Positions 2,147 through 34,060 of a DNA stretch of 60,008 nt are shown here, piece by piece. A model generated the notes under the pieces. It had not been told where the DNA came from. It ran no database searches and saw only the letters and a program-made list of their open reading frames with translations. The DNA is from Clostridia bacterium (GTDB taxonomy: Bacteria > Bacillota > Clostridia > Oscillospirales > CAG-272): the NCBI GenBank assembly GCA_017411805.1, contig JAFQPI010000007.1, positions 1-60,008 on the forward strand, read 5' to 3'. Every line of letters starts with the position of its first letter. Within the stretch, counting starts at the first letter, position 1. Both the position numbers and the translations under genes were made by a program.

Positions 2147-5100
2147 ATGAAACATTTTAAAAGAATTTTGATGTTATCTCTCGCTATTATGATGTGTTCA
2201 CTGATTAGTATATCTGCATTTGCAGCAAATGATAATGGTGTAACATATTTAGCGACGATTGATAACCCGACGATCTCTGTGAGCAGCGAAGATCAGACTA
2301 TTGCTGTTACGATCAAAGCGAATAAACCTGTAGATATCGATTCTATTGACATTGGCGTAGGTTTACCCTCTGGGTTAGCTTATGTAAGTGTTGCCAATAC
2401 TGACTTGGGATTTAAGACTGGCGATTTTAATAAATCCAATGGAAGTTTAGTTTGGTATTATGAATATGATCAAGAGGCGGACTGGTTAACGACAGATTTA
2501 TTGGCTGTTGTTACATACAAAGTGCCTGCCAATACGCCTGCTGGTGAGTATAAAATCGATTTTGAGATTAATAATATTACATCTGACTTTGGTACTCCCT
2601 GGGAAACCGGTGTTACCGTCTCTACTACCCTCACCATCGCTCCTTCCACCCCCGCACACACTTGTTCTCTTACTCATGTTCCTGAAGTAAAGGCAACGTG
2701 TATTGCCGGCGGTAACATCGAATACTGGTACTGCTCCGATGAAGAGTGCGGCAAGTACTACAGCGATGCAAACGGTGTGAACGAGATCACCGACAAGACG
2801 AGTGTTAACACCGACATAGACAACGATAACCACGTTGGAGATGAGGCAAGCGGTGGATTCACCTCCAATGGTGATGGTACACACTACGAGACTATCACCT
2901 GTAAGAGCTGCCATAACGCAAAGAGCACCGTACCCGGCACTTGCTCCGGCGGCACTGCAACTTGTACCGAAAAGGCTGTCTGCTCTTACTGTAACACCGC
3001 TTACGGTCCTGAACCCGCAGGTCACGGTAAGACCAATGGCTTTCGTTATAATTCTAATAATAACGGTACTCACGACGTTGTCTGTGATGATTGTGGTCAG
3101 ACTACGGAAACGAATGTAAAATGCTCCGGCACTTCTACCGAGTGCGAAGGAACAGATACCTGTTCCAAGTGCGGCGGCACATTCGATCTTGCTCACAACA
3201 TTACTTACGTCCCTGAGGTAATTCCCGAAAACTGTCAGCAGACAGGTCACGGCGAATATTGGTACTGTGACAAATGTGAGGCTTGCTTCGGCGACGCTGA
3301 GGGTTCTTACCAGCTCAATCCCGCATGGCTCTACTACACCGGCGAACACGTTCGTCCCGAGGGCGCAGCTGATTGTGCTACTGTGGGATGCGCGCTTTGC
3401 GGTGAGGAAACCTATGGCTTAGGTGAGCACGACACCGGTGTTCCTGCCTGCCAGACCGGAACCTGCTCCAAGTGTAATGAAACCATCACCGGCTACGGTT
3501 GCGTTAACTATACCACCCCCGCATGTATGGACGGCGTTTGCAACTACTGCGGCGGTTTCGTTGCCGGATTTGGTCACGAGAACGGCGCTTGGGCTGATTG
3601 CCTTGACGGCGAGTGCTCTTACGGTTGTGGTCTTGAATACCCTGCTACCGCTGAGCATAAAGACGATGATGACGACGGTTATTGCGACACCTGTTGGGGC
3701 CACCTGAACCACGACGTGGATCCCTGCGTGGGCGGCATGTGCTCCATCTGCGAAACCTATGTTGAACCCGCTCACAAATACTTCTACGCTTGCGATCAGT
3801 ACTGCATGAACTGCGGCGAGAAGACCAATCCCAATGCAACTCACAGCATTACCCACGTAGAGGCTAAGCCTGGTACAGATTGTCAAACCTACGACGGTCA
3901 CATGGAGTATTGGACTTGTTCGCATTGCGGTGGCGTATGGACTGATGAAAACCTGATGCACCAGACCAATATGATGAGCATCAAGGTTAACGGCAATCAC
4001 ACCTACACCTACAACTGCGATACAAACTGTAAGGTTTGCGAACAGTTGACAAGACCTGAGGCTAAGCATGAGGGCGGCACTGCAACCTGTACCAAGAAGG
4101 CAGAATGCTCGTACTGTGGCAAGGAGTACGGCGAGCTGGCTAAGCACGAATACTTCTACCCTTGCGATCCGTACTGCTGTATCTGCTACGAGTTGACTAA
4201 TCCCGAAGCAACTCACAGCATTACCCACGTAGAGGCTAAGCCTGGTACAGATTGTCAAACCTACAACGGTAACATGGAGTATTGGACTTGTTCGCATTGC
4301 GGTGGCGTATGGACTGATGAAAACCTGATGCACCAGACCAATATGATGAGCATCAAGGTTAACGGCAATCACACCTACACCTACAACTGCGATACAAACT
4401 GTAATGTTTGCAAAGAGTTGACAAGACCTGAGGCTAAGCATGAGGGCGGCGAAGCAACATGTAAAGAAAAGGCTGTATGCCAGTATTGTAAGACAGCCTA
4501 CGGTGAGCTTGCGAAGTGCACAAGCTTGACGGCCATTAATGGTAAGGATGCAACATGTAAGGAAAGCGGTTGGAAGGAATACTGGATGTGCTTCACTTGC
4601 AATACCCTCTATGCCGATAGTGATGCAACGAAAAAAATCGATGTTTTTGCAGATTGGAAATCCGAAGGCGGCGAAGGTTATATTGCGGTTAATCCCGACA
4701 ACCATGTTGGCGGTGTGTCCTTCGTCTACGAGAATGTCACTAACACCACCCACGACAAGATCACTGTGTGTAGCGACTGTAACAAACGCACTAACACTGC
4801 CACTGAACCCCACAACTACACCACCGGCAACTCTGCTTACACCTGCATCTGCGGCAAGGTCAAGGAGTTCACCCTGACCATCTACGCCCTCCAAGTCTCC
4901 GGTGATGCTGACCCCGAAAACTGTCCTATTGAAATCACTGTTCCCTACGGTGCTCTGCTGAAGGATTACATCCCCAAAAATTGCGGAGCAGTATGGAATT
5001 ATGCACCCATCCACGAAAAAGGTGAAACGGTTCCCGTAAACGGCACCCGCTATAACGGTGTTTACGCCATTGATGAGTGGTGCGACATGGACTGGAACGT

Positions 5101-12425: not shown

Positions 12426-13577
12426 ATGAAATGTACGGAAATATTCAATACGATCGACAGTTTGAACAGCGAATACGTAAAGGTTTGGGAGGATGTTTGC
12501 AATATCGAAAGTCCGACGAAATATAAGGCGGGCGTTGACGCTTGCGGTGAATATTTTGCAAAAATGGCTCGAGAGAGAGGATGGAAGATAGAGTATTTCC
12601 GCCAAGCGGTAGCGGGGGACGTCGTGGATATAACGTTGAATCCCGATGCGGAGGAAAAACCCATCATCTTCTCGGCGCATCTTGATACCGTCCATCCCGT
12701 AGGACTCTTCGGCAACCCTGCAGTGAAGATCGACGGGGATAAGATATACGGTCCCGGCGTTGAAGACTGCAAGGGCGGAGCGGTTGCGGCGTTCCTTGCT
12801 ATGGACGCGCTCGATAGATGCGGCTTCCGCGCAAGACCCGTTAAGCTGATTCTTCAGACAGACGAGGAGGTCAGCAGCGTAATCAGCGGAAAGACTACGA
12901 TCGCGTATATGTGCGATCGTGCTCTTGAGTCAGTTGCTTTCTTGAATCTCGAGGGTCATTCGGCAGGAAAGGCATGTCTTATTCGTAAGGGAACGATCAC
13001 ATTCACCTTCAAGGTCGAGGGAGTTGAGGCGCATGGTTCGCTTTGTGCGACCGCGGGTGCGAGTGCCATTCTCGACGCGGCACATAAGATCATAGAGCTT
13101 GAAAAGCTTAAGGATAAGGACGGTCTGACCTGTAACTGCGGCGTTATCAGCGGCGGAAGCGTGCCGAATACAGTTCCCGGCTACTGTGAATTCAAGGCAA
13201 ATATCAGATTTGCAAATTCGGAACAGCTTGAGTGGGTGCGTGCTCATGTAAAGGCGATCGCGGATACTGTTCACGTTCCCGGATGCAAGTGCACGGTGAA
13301 TGACCCCAAGGGCAGAGTGGCAATGGAGTATTCCGAGAAGAACGTGGCTCTGCTTGATAGGATGAATGAGATATTTACCGAAAACGGGCTCCCTGAGCTT
13401 GTGGCTTCAAAGAGCAACGGTGCGTCGGATGCGGCGAACGTAACTGCGGCGGGTGCGGCATGCATAGACTCGCTCGGCGTTCGCGGCGGAAAGATTCATA
13501 GCCCCGATGAGTTTGCGTATCTTGATTCGCTTGCGGAATGCGCAAAGAGACTTGCCGCAGTTGCCGTAAATATATAA
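12426..13577 (+). CDS. M20-family metallopeptidase/deacylase (ArgE/DapE/CPG2 type)
   Basis: 383 residues. Two-zinc site residues are present: SAHLDT with His85 and Asp87, GPGVEDCKGG with Asp114 as bridging ligand, and TDEEV with the catalytic Glu147 and ligand Glu148. A dimerisation lid follows (residues about 190-300), and a late His is found in GGKIHSPDEF. The family removes acyl groups or amino acids from amides and short peptides. It follows the SGNH gene by 9 bp with its own AGG-rich site and is the last gene of the operon. Confidence 0.88.
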   Translation: MKCTEIFNTIDSLNSEYVKVWEDVCNIESPTKYKAGVDACGEYFAKMARERGWKIEYFRQAVAGDVVDITLNPDAEEKPIIFSAHLDTVHPVGLFGNPAVKIDGDKIYGPGVEDCKGGAVAAFLAMDALDRCGFRARPVKLILQTDEEVSSVISGKTTIAYMCDRALESVAFLNLEGHSAGKACLIRKGTITFTFKVEGVEAHGSLCATAGASAILDAAHKIIELEKLKDKDGLTCNCGVISGGSVPNTVPGYCEFKANIRFANSEQLEWVRAHVKAIADTVHVPGCKCTVNDPKGRVAMEYSEKNVALLDRMNEIFTENGLPELVASKSNGASDAANVTAAGAACIDSLGVRGGKIHSPDEFAYLDSLAECAKRLAAVAVNI

Positions 13578-13595: not shown

Positions 13596-13624
13596 TTGAC
13601 AACGGGCTTGGGTTGTGGTATACT
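13596..13624 (+). promoter_or_regulatory. Promoter of the riboswitch/nucleoside kinase transcript
   Basis: Perfect TTGACA at 13596-13601, 17-bp spacer, TATACT at 13619-13624. The predicted start near 13631 places the aptamer at the very 5' end of the RNA. Confidence 0.9.
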
Positions 13625-13633
13625 GATTTAAAG

Positions 13634-13707
13634 AGAAAAAGGTATAAGCTTGCAATAGGGCAGGCGTTTCTACTAACCACCGATAAATGGTTGACTACCG
13701 TATTTTT
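13634..13707 (+). ncRNA. Purine riboswitch aptamer (guanine-type)
   Basis: All conserved parts of the purine aptamer are visible in order: P1/J1-2 GGTATAA at 13641, P2 arms GCTTGC and GCAGGC closing loop AATAGG, J2-3 GTTTCTAC at 13666-13673, P3 arms AACCA and TGGTT closing CCGATAAA, then J3-1 GACTAC at 13693-13698 pairing back through TACC to GGTA. The loop GG and CC pairs for the L2-L3 kiss are present. The specificity base is C (GAC rather than GAT), which indicates guanine or hypoxanthine rather than adenine. It lies upstream of a nucleoside kinase gene. L2 and L3 deviate slightly from the usual lengths. Confidence 0.87.
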
Positions 13708-13727
13708 GCGGCAGTCAACCTTTTTTT
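13689..13727 (+). terminator. Terminator overlapping the purine aptamer (expression platform)
   Basis: GGTTGACT (13689-13696) pairs perfectly with AGTCAACC (13713-13720), with an inner CCG/CGG extension, followed by seven T. The 5' arm is the 3' side of P3 plus J3-1 of the aptamer, so aptamer and terminator exclude each other. Ligand binding should therefore prevent termination, an ON arrangement. Confidence 0.88.
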
Positions 13728-13772: not shown

Positions 13773-15473
13773 ATGAAATTGATTATTGACGGATACGTTT
13801 ATTGGGTGCGCACGGGGCAGTCGCTCCTTGATATTGTGCGCGAGCTCGGGCTTATCTCGGGCAAGCTATCAACCGACCCCATCGCGGCAAAGATCGCGGG
13901 AGAGGTTTTTACTTTGAATTACATACCTATGCGCGAAAAGGACGCGGCGCATGAGCGCGAGTCGATCAGAAAGGCGATGGCATCGGCGGACGGCGTAGTC
14001 AGACTTTTGCGCTATTCCGATCCGAGCGGAAAGGATGCCTACAGAAGAACCGCTCAGTTTGTCCTCTTTCTTGCCATCCGCAAGCTCTGGCCGAAGGCAA
14101 GAGCGAAGATGAATTGCACGGTGGGTTCGGGTATGTACATAAAGATCGCGGGAGCCGAGGACTTTTCGGCAGAACGGCTTAAAAGATGCGTCGAAGAAAT
14201 AATTGCGGAGGATATTCCGCTGATCCGAAGAAGAATATCGACCTCCGAGGCGATGGATTATTTCACTCGTCAGGGTCAGTACGACAAATCGCGCCTGCTC
14301 ACATACCGCGCATCTCCCTATCTCGACGTTTACGGATACGGCGATTTTATTGACTATTATTACGGCGAGATGGCTCCCTCAACGGGATTTTTGCGCGTTT
14401 GGGATATTTTGCCCGCGAAAAACGGTTTTATCTTTGTTTTCCCCGATAGAAACGATCCCGACCGTATCTCGCATTACCGCGAGATGACGAATTTTATGAA
14501 GGTCTATGACGAGGGAAAGCAATGGGGCGAGCTTATGCGATGCGAGACTGTGGCAGATCTTAACGAGCTTGTCGATTCGGGCAGGCTTCGTGAGCTGATA
14601 CGCGTCAACGAGGCACTTCACGAGAAGAATTTCTCGCAGGTGGCTGACAGTATATGCGAGAGGGGTGCGAAGGCGGTCATGCTTGCGGGTCCTTCGTCAT
14701 CGGGAAAAACTACCTCGGCTAACAGACTTGCAACTCAACTTCGCTGCCATGGAAAAACGCCGATCCTGATAAGCCTTGACGATTACTACCTCGATCGCGA
14801 CAAGATCGCGCCCGGCGAGGACGGAAAGGTCGATCTTGAGCATATCAATACGATAGATACCGAGCTTTTCGGCGAGCAGCTTACAGCGCTTCTGCGCGGA
14901 GAGGAGATCGAGCTGCCAAGCTTCAATTTTAAGACGGGCAGGCGTGAATGGCGCGGTAAGGTATTAAAGCTTGACGAGCGATCGGTGATCATCGTCGAGG
15001 GTATCCACGCGCTGAATCCAGTACTGCTTCCGAATGAGCTTGAAAAGAGGGCGGTCTTCAAGATATTCGTAAGCCCGCTCTTGCCGCTCAGTCTTGATGA
15101 TCACAACCGAATTCCGACGAGCTATCTTCGCCTGCTCAGAAGGACCGTGCGGGACCACGATACTCGGAATTCGCCGATACAGCAGACGCTTGCCATGTGG
15201 GATTCCGTGCGCCGAGGGGAGGGAAGATGGATCCTGCCATTTCAAGAGGAGGCGGACGTCATCTTCAATACCTCGACACTTTATGAGCTTGCGGTGCTGA
15301 AAAAGCATATCTACCCGTTGCTTTGCGCCGTAGAACCCGAGGAGGAGTGCTACGAGCAGGTCCGCGCGATGGTAAAGATACTCAACTATATTCACGAAGC
15401 CGACGTTGACGATGAGATCCCGCCGACAAGCATCGTCCGCGAGTTTATCGGAGGAAATGCGTTTTACAGATGA
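13773..15473 (+). CDS. Nucleoside kinase (uridine kinase/PRK family with TGS and ThrRS-like N-terminal domains)
   Basis: 566 residues. Residues 1-60 are a TGS-like domain and about 65-220 resemble the second additional domain of threonyl-tRNA synthetase. The kinase domain starts with the P-loop GPSSSGKTT at 306-314, followed by SLDDYY and the VEGIHALNP segment typical of uridine kinase/phosphoribulokinase enzymes. These phosphorylate nucleosides with ATP or GTP. The full-length arrangement matches the clostridial nucleoside kinases of about 550 residues. Control by a guanine-type riboswitch suggests a link to purine nucleoside salvage rather than uridine alone (inference). Confidence 0.87.
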   Translation: MKLIIDGYVYWVRTGQSLLDIVRELGLISGKLSTDPIAAKIAGEVFTLNYIPMREKDAAHERESIRKAMASADGVVRLLRYSDPSGKDAYRRTAQFVLFLAIRKLWPKARAKMNCTVGSGMYIKIAGAEDFSAERLKRCVEEIIAEDIPLIRRRISTSEAMDYFTRQGQYDKSRLLTYRASPYLDVYGYGDFIDYYYGEMAPSTGFLRVWDILPAKNGFIFVFPDRNDPDRISHYREMTNFMKVYDEGKQWGELMRCETVADLNELVDSGRLRELIRVNEALHEKNFSQVADSICERGAKAVMLAGPSSSGKTTSANRLATQLRCHGKTPILISLDDYYLDRDKIAPGEDGKVDLEHINTIDTELFGEQLTALLRGEEIELPSFNFKTGRREWRGKVLKLDERSVIIVEGIHALNPVLLPNELEKRAVFKIFVSPLLPLSLDDHNRIPTSYLRLLRRTVRDHDTRNSPIQQTLAMWDSVRRGEGRWILPFQEEADVIFNTSTLYELAVLKKHIYPLLCAVEPEEECYEQVRAMVKILNYIHEADVDDEIPPTSIVREFIGGNAFYR

Positions 15474-33850: not shown

Positions 33851-33886
33851 GCAAATACTCTCCCGAAAGAACGGGAGGGTTTATCG

Positions 33887-34047
33887 GATAGCTCTCCGCA
33901 AGAGTAAACTCGAGCGACAACAGAACGGATATTTTCCGAACTGCCAGCCGAACGCCCGCCACAGCGCCGACTTCGGCACCCGCGCCTTTCCCGCGTGACT
34001 TTGGCAGTCGTTTCTTCGCGGTACTCTTCACAAGGTGCGCCTCTATC
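33887..34047 (-). ncRNA. Lysine riboswitch (L box)
   Basis: On the minus strand the aptamer starts GATAGAGGCGC and ends GAGAGCTATC, the closing P1 pair. In between come AAGAGTA, GGAAAGG, GGTGCCGAAG, GGCTGGCAG and CTGTTGTCGCTCGAGTTTAC-type segments in the order of known lysine riboswitches. The length, about 161 nt, fits. It is followed by a terminator and then dapA, so lysine should switch off its own synthesis. This also explains why a short reading frame here is not a gene. Confidence 0.95.
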
Positions 34048-34060
34048 AAACATTTTTTAC

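Follow-up and report, generated by a model that had tools for sequence, protein, structure and literature searches.

Results

Genomic Context of the Riboswitch

The window, by which we denote the entire analyzed stretch of 60,008 nucleotides from a Clostridia bacterium, belongs to a contig (C2) of a 2.46-Mb genome that comprises 73 contigs and is 84.7% complete. An Rfam scan identified two riboswitches in it: the purine riboswitch described here and a lysine riboswitch, whose aptamer occupies 33881-34053 on the minus strand (81.8 bits). The purine riboswitch is located between a peptidase gene and a gene for a protein with a uridine-kinase-like part, referred to below as the kinase, and the region is composed of the following features:

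12426..13577, plus strand: M20-family peptidase gene, the upstream border of the intergenic region, outside the switch
13596..13624, plus strand: candidate sigma-70-type promoter, TTGACA-17-TATACT, from a pattern scan; TG precedes the -10 element, and the start is predicted at about 13631
13620..13717, plus strand: purine riboswitch aptamer, span of the RF00167 match (44.3 bits, gathering score 37)
13641..13699, plus strand: three-way-junction aptamer proper; the minimum-energy fold of 13628-13704 is exactly P1-P2-P3
13689..13727, plus strand: predicted intrinsic terminator, from folding; its 5' arm lies within the P3 3' strand, J3-1, and the P1 3' strand
13695..13695, plus strand: C74, the guanine-specifying base, paired with G in the terminator as well (Rfam alignment and folding)
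13703..13707, plus strand: UUUUU tract in the terminator loop, a possible pause site (sequence and analogy to pbuE)
13773..15473, plus strand: regulated gene, encoding a 566-residue threonyl-tRNA-synthetase-like and PRK/uridine-kinase-like protein (open reading frame and profile matches)

The candidate promoter agrees with the consensus at 11 of 12 bases, and the single site found compares with 0.9 expected in shuffled sequences, which makes it weak evidence by itself. The genome contains a second purine riboswitch (L001; G000 C32:64072-64172), which precedes a BMP-type lipoprotein gene and whose terminator is separate from the aptamer, beginning 37 bases 3' of C74. A phosphoribosyltransferase search of the same genome gave six places, and relatives of purine nucleoside phosphorylase were found at three.

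Aptamer Architecture and Identity

The first-pass annotation of the window had placed a C at the specificity position, which indicates the guanine type, and had proposed a covariance search. This search returns RF00167 above its gathering cut-off. With all 4227 families run on the 60-kb window the E-value is 4.1e-4, and for the genome it is 4.0e-6. The base was correctly assigned: J3-1 consists of A13694 and C13695. P1 (13641-13644/13696-13699) is very short, with four base pairs followed by a mismatch or bulge. P2 (13648-13653/13660-13665) is closed by the loop AAUAGG and P3 (13674-13679/13688-13693) by the loop CCGAUAAA, and J2-3 has the sequence GUUUCUAC (13666-13673). Thus, the core features of guanine-I aptamers are present, namely C74, U22, U51, and a J2-3 free of insertions, with contact positions as given in PMC9295807.

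The aptamer stretch alone is not exceptional in its folding energy (z -1.24 against dinucleotide shuffles, 19 of 200 as good), so the case for it rests on the Rfam score and on its relatives. A full-length relative of the kinase (65-100% identity) occurs in eight of the 116 family genomes searched, and in all eight a purine riboswitch lies upstream of it: seven of these are listed by RF00167, the one in G054 below the gathering score, and the one in G031 (L034) was recognized by its motif. A further set of 34 close orthologues (L046-L079, 62-86% identity), taken from the 80 loci kept, stems from metagenome-assembled genomes of Clostridia and Oscillospiraceae, many labelled as herbivore gut. 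Here, RF00167 finds a riboswitch at gathering score before 15 of the 34 kinases, and a scripted motif search, from which false matches were discarded by eye, finds it before 18, adding L064, L067, and L068. All leaders were chosen by the aptamer motif, independently of the terminator. As the two sets have four loci in common, they provide 23 distinct kinase-linked leaders, including that of the window.

Across these 23 leaders the aptamer pairs are kept in 93.5% of the cells, compared with 24.5-44.7% in slid controls. P2 exhibits compensatory changes on both sides at five of its six pairs, P1 does not vary, and P3 shows no more than one-sided changes; the outermost P3 pair is not formed in 15 of 22 cases. 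Cells changed on both sides number 16, above every shuffle (4.2 on average), and further pair types in the aptamer are no more frequent than in shuffles (11 vs 11.9). The GG and CC contact bases of L2 and L3 are the same in all 23 leaders, the window included. The window contains a purine riboswitch of the guanine type.

Overlap of the Terminator with the Aptamer

Folding of the complete leader (-32.1 kcal/mol; z -4.67 against dinucleotide shuffles, none of 200 as good) predicts a terminator with an outer stem of eight base pairs (13689-13696/13713-13720), an inner stem of five (13698-13702/13707-13711), and the tract UUUUUUU at 13721-13727. A simple scan for terminator patterns did not return this hairpin and listed P2 instead. 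The outer 5' arm is made up of the P3 3' strand minus its first base, A73, C74, and the first base of the P1 3' strand, which matches exactly the arm that the first-pass annotation had located inside the aptamer, and the inner stem uses two further P1 bases (13698-13699). Because bases 13689-13699 are common to both structures, aptamer and terminator are mutually exclusive. This anatomy supports an ON-type layout as in pbuE, an adenine switch, whose platform feature, a 5' arm inside the P3 3' strand, J3-1, and the P1 3' strand, is present in all 23 kinase-linked leaders, that of the window among them. Control at the level of translation was also considered and rejected: the start codon of the kinase lies 73 bases past P1, and no sequestering pair occurs among the folds computed.

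Comparison with Other Purine Riboswitches

We scanned kinase-linked, family, and class sets for terminators by one rule with a horizon of 170 nt. Throughout the 23 kinase-linked leaders, the start of the best terminator lies 2-12 bases 5' of C74, and in 22 of them C74 is paired with G in this terminator. Position 73 forms an A-U pair in 12 leaders, a U-A pair in three, and a U-G pair in two and is an unpaired A in six; hence, the leaders with U73 retain a terminator pair at this position in five of five cases. These pairs were counted in each sequence by folding; a whole-leader MAFFT alignment misregistered the 3' arms of several relatives. When terminator arms were swapped between relatives, the mean energy changed from -12.7 kcal/mol (own arms) to -11.1 kcal/mol, with the own arm surpassing the average of its swaps in 15 of 23 leaders, an advantage that is only modest because the aptamer arm hardly varies. 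Compared with shuffled arms, the own arms are matched by at most two of 200 shuffles in 15 of 23 leaders and by 79 of 200 in the worst case (L039).

As a family control we used 23 other purine riboswitches, which according to our uncurated reading of translated gene starts, the basis of all gene names given for control riboswitches, precede genes for BMP-type lipoproteins (10), xpt (7), FAD oxidoreductases (3), purF (2), and an NCS2 permease (1); a sub-threshold match in G070 (L042) was left out of the scan. Their best hairpin begins before C74 in two cases (L009 and L016), at +5 in two, and later in 17, and two have none. Among the 20 linked to BMP, xpt, purF, or NCS2 genes, it begins more than eight bases past C74 in 16. 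The class sample comprised 245 genomes, 79 of which have matches, 137 in total. We retrieved the 135 matches that lie in other genomes than the window's, including two (L172 and L238) that end early at contig ends. Of its 129 riboswitches with C74, the terminator begins at or before C74 in three, within P1 in two, and later in 111, and 13 have none; of its five with U74 (adenine type), three have the ON layout, one has a later terminator, and one has none, so the scan does recognize the known adenine layout. One further locus has A at position 74. A separate terminator is taken here as a sign of an OFF layout from its position alone, antiterminators aside.

By terminator position, the ON layout is specific to the kinase-linked group within the sets examined. 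The first-pass annotation had called ON wiring unusual for a guanine-type base, and a share of three in 129 bears this out. What it chiefly claimed, namely that a C74 aptamer of the guanine type is wired as an ON switch, finds support in the anatomy and in the occurrence of the layout in 23 of 23 kinase-linked leaders against three of 129 controls. The stricter filters of the class and family searches drop weak matches, and low scores are typical of aptamers of the kinase type (the one in G031 was missed), so the controls may hold more C74 switches in ON layout than were counted.

The three ON-layout C74 cases of the class are a clean one (L263), which has a very similar aptamer and precedes a gene for an FAD-dependent oxidoreductase, and two less clean ones before a guaB-like (L184) and a BMP-like gene (L223). 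A C74 riboswitch in ON layout likewise precedes an FAD-dependent oxidoreductase gene at L016 (1501-1630). The link to this gene is sporadic: among 30 FAD-oxidoreductase loci, with the gene start located in 17, the motif search flags two (L271 and L276), and a third (L266, identical to L016) was seen by eye. Two other riboswitches before this gene family (L017 and L020) have C at position 73 (GCCUGC and GCCUAC) and no clear terminator in the leader. Before purF-like genes (L008 and L010), the specificity junction reads CGCUAUG, which corresponds to G73.

Distribution among Kinase Relatives

No riboswitch was recognized before 13 of the 34 close orthologues, one of which (L076) offers only 199 bases of upstream sequence. 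The three nearest relatives of the window's kinase (L046, L047, and L079) have kept the terminator and lost the aptamer. Since the nearest relatives have lost it and 13 of 34 orthologues lack a recognized one, riboswitch control is dispensable. The motif is also absent upstream of L126-L129, close orthologues that belong to a different family within the order, and none of the 19 loci examined (46 fetched) with kinases at about 36-42% identity has a riboswitch. A tree of the kinases (41 rows) requires four changes of the riboswitch label, or three without the outgroup, compared with 13.6 on average for shuffled labels, none of 500 shuffles being as low. The 13 orthologues without riboswitch fall in one part of the tree, which also holds two with riboswitch; with 12 of the 38 inner branches starred, the gains and losses cannot be placed in a firm order.

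Even without the aptamer, L046 and L047 show a TTGACA-17-TATACT promoter upstream of their leaders. Just 5' of position 3001 they contain an identical stretch, GAATTACGGTATTGCATATTTGAATGACTACCGG, and their GGUA and UACC segments could pair in a small hairpin incompatible with the terminator. At L079 (2900-3975) the kinase begins with a clean start codon and is devoid of the first approximately 241 residues, the threonyl-tRNA-synthetase-like part; an assembly error of the metagenome bin is possible. Around the distant kinase relatives L080-L098, mostly from Lachnospiraceae, an RNase P RNA gene lies within a few kb in 17 of 19 loci.

In 13 of the 23 kinase-linked operons a gene for a YgjV-like membrane protein lies between riboswitch and kinase. 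The first 90 residues of a homologue from a kinase-less locus (L012/L041) match the Pfam family Imp-YgjV with 26.3 bits (cut-off 23.5). At that locus (L041, in G013) a purine riboswitch precedes the YgjV-like gene, and the kinase is absent from the fetched stretch; a hairpin of -10.9 kcal/mol starts two bases 3' of C74 and contains a likely ribosome-binding site.

The Regulated Kinase

Residues 69-215 of the window's protein match threonyl-tRNA synthetase, and residues 300-516 match uridine kinases and phosphoribulokinase. Its score for the uridine kinase model TIGR00235 is 75.2 bits, far under the equivalog cut-off of 220.3. We aligned 37 kinases (the window's and 36 of the 80 fetched) with six canonical Udk proteins from the same bacterial family. 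The P-loop (with one Ser for Thr), D336, Y338, R391, R457, D461, and R465 are common to both groups. A motif histidine, which in uridine-cytidine kinase structures contacts the pyrimidine base, is present in six of six Udk proteins and replaced by Gly in 36 of the 37 kinases and by Ala in one, and the Asp of the Udk motif YDY/YDF is replaced by Asn (FNF) in 36 of 37. Based on the sub-threshold score and on these two exchanges, the kinase is probably something other than a uridine kinase.

Of the eight genomes that have a close kinase, six contain a canonical udk above the cut-off, compared with 17 of the 108 lacking such a kinase (Fisher p 0.0007, ignoring kinship). A plain replacement of Udk by the kinase was rejected on the grounds that both stand side by side in those six genomes. 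No second PF00485 protein was found in the window's own genome (84.7% complete), where the argument against a Udk function is weaker, the kinase being the sole PF00485 protein. Together, the His-to-Gly exchange and the accompanying udk genes lend support to an earlier hint in the first-pass annotation that the kinase is no true uridine kinase. Judging from the switch, a purine substrate is plausible.

Ligand Specificity

PMC9295807 names U22, U51, and C74 as ligand contacts and describes guanine-I riboswitches as commonly repressing; guanine-II, xanthine-II, and a 2'-deoxyguanosine variant, each with changes in the core, are predicted there to be ON switches. The guanine-II and xanthine-II classes were rejected for the window, whose J2-3 is free of their one- or two-base insertion; in xanthine-II, U51 is changed as well (PMC9295807). 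The 2'-deoxyguanosine variant, which has C73 and is associated with a nucleoside hydrolase gene, was rejected too, the window having A73 and a PF00485 gene. Among the kinase-linked leaders, five of 23 have U73 instead of A73, and two of these five additionally have C48 (U48C); these changes may or may not alter the ligand. U22, U51, C74, and U47, which we take to be a further ligand-contact base, do not vary in any of the 23 leaders. Because the contact bases never vary, guanine remains the expected ligand and is the best guess for the window on the basis of its sequence. A variant aptamer for another ligand, raised as an alternative in the first-pass annotation, receives no support from the window, where all contact bases correspond to the consensus.

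Discussion

Proposed Mechanism and Alternatives

When transcripts of increasing length are folded computationally, the aptamer has the lowest energy (-15.5 to -16.5 kcal/mol) at the 3' ends sampled between 13700 and 13710, and a competing fold prevails from 13712 onward. At 13727 the terminator fold reaches -32.1 kcal/mol compared with -16.5 kcal/mol for the forced aptamer, a gap of 15.6 kcal/mol in an energy model that omits the loop-loop contact. By our estimate, nanomolar ligand binding could pay about 11 kcal/mol at equilibrium; as the gap exceeds this binding energy, the switch must be kinetic or else be mostly off. Kinetic operation has been described for pbuE (PMC7707468).

We consider it likely, and hold this with good confidence, that the element in the window is a transcriptional ON riboswitch of guanine-I type that controls a likely purine-handling kinase. 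The aptamer would fold while RNA polymerase passes about 13700-13710, as the computed folding suggests. A ligand bound in that interval (guanine, or more weakly hypoxanthine or xanthine) would hold P1, C74, and P3, and the aptamer so held would resist displacement by the 3' arm of the terminator, allowing the kinase to be transcribed. When the ligand is absent, the 3' arm may invade first P1, then C74, and finally P3, a succession that follows the computed anatomy, and the terminator thus formed would stop transcription about 45 bases 5' of the kinase start codon. The most likely role of the protein controlled in this way is that of a kinase in purine salvage or purine handling, distinct from classical uridine kinases.

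That the element is instead an ordinary OFF switch like xpt, in which the ligand favors termination by way of an unrecognized antiterminator, would conform to the usual repression by C74 guanine riboswitches (PMC9295807) and to the downstream hairpin of 16 of the 20 BMP-, xpt-, purF-, and NCS2-linked riboswitches of the family. However, the window's terminator consumes C74 together with P3 and P1 bases and cannot form with a ligand-bound aptamer, an arrangement repeated in 23 of 23 leaders, and the alternative ligand-free pairing found by folding, between the P1 5' strand and J2-3, sets the terminator arm free and does not block it; we therefore regard an OFF switch as highly improbable. Loss of switching, with a hairpin that mainly terminates transcription of the upstream peptidase gene and acts as a constitutive attenuator next to a decaying aptamer, might be read from the three nearest kinase relatives, in which precisely the aptamer is gone. 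The window, however, retains P1, P2, P3, all core bases, and the GG and CC bases of L2 and L3, exceeds the RF00167 cut-off, and has a promoter-like site of its own, so that such decay is very unlikely.

More room must be given to the same ON design with another guanine-like ligand (hypoxanthine, xanthine, guanosine, or deoxyguanosine) that corresponds to the substrate of the kinase. In its favor, the original pocket prefers guanine to hypoxanthine and xanthine by a factor of only about 10 (PMC9295807), A73U is present in five of 23 leaders, with U48C in addition in two of them, and induction of a gene by its substrate fits the ON direction. The window itself, however, has A73, U48, and every guanine-I contact base, and it has neither the J2-3 insertions of xanthine-II and guanine-II nor the C73 of the 2'-deoxyguanosine variant. 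We judge a different main ligand to be possible but rather unlikely; the distinction is gradual, since our preferred reading, a guanine-responsive ON switch, itself allows hypoxanthine and xanthine as weaker ligands.

Relation to Known Systems and Implications

The window's aptamer resembles guanine-I (B. subtilis xpt, RF00167) in its three-way junction, core bases, C74, uninserted J2-3, and the GG-CC contact of L2 and L3. It differs in a predicted terminator that overlaps the aptamer (ON), whereas the xpt type has a downstream terminator and a separate antiterminator (OFF), and also in its very short P1 of four base pairs and in regulating a kinase. L2 and L3 of the B. subtilis xpt aptamer both have a length of 7, unlike those of the window with 6 and 8. 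The expression platform is shared with B. subtilis pbuE, where the terminator strand invades P1, J3-1, and P3 unless the ligand holds the aptamer, and the UUUUU loop tract of the window resembles the hexauridine tract of pbuE (both from PMC7707468); in contrast to pbuE, the window has C74 and not U74, which makes it guanine-type, and its gene encodes a kinase and not an efflux pump. With guanine-II of Paenibacillus the window shares the guanine type, the predicted ON direction, and an OFF guanine riboswitch in the same genomes, but guanine-II has an insertion in J2-3, which the window lacks, and mostly precedes phosphoribosyltransferase genes (PMC9295807). The kinase is related to Udk (TIGR00235) by its P-loop PRK/uridine-kinase sequence and differs from it in the extra threonyl-tRNA-synthetase-like N-terminal part and in two exchanges within the substrate motif, Gly for His and Asn for Asp.

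In the literature searched, to which supplements and most subscription papers do not belong, we found no published report of a guanine-type riboswitch associated with such a kinase, and the search gave no match for a TGS domain combined with uridine kinase or for YgjV combined with a riboswitch. Within this literature, the components and the general principle of the mechanism have precedents, and their combination and its conservation appear to be new.

A broader scenario, which we put forward tentatively and consider conceivable rather than probable, is that in gut Clostridia one lineage of aptamers of the guanine type took on a pbuE-like ON platform and induces an undescribed purine-handling kinase, the part of the lineage marked by A73U/U48C having drifted to another purine ligand. 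Such a lineage would amount to a new, substrate-induced branch of purine salvage, working against the direction of the guanine switches that act as repressors in these genomes. If the ON reading is true, a standard guanine aptamer with unchanged contact bases could join an activating platform and persist in evolution, so that the base sensed would be separable from the direction of switching, and a natural guanine-ON part would be at hand for engineering. It would further provide a biochemical lead for an uncharacterized kinase family that resembles uridine kinase.
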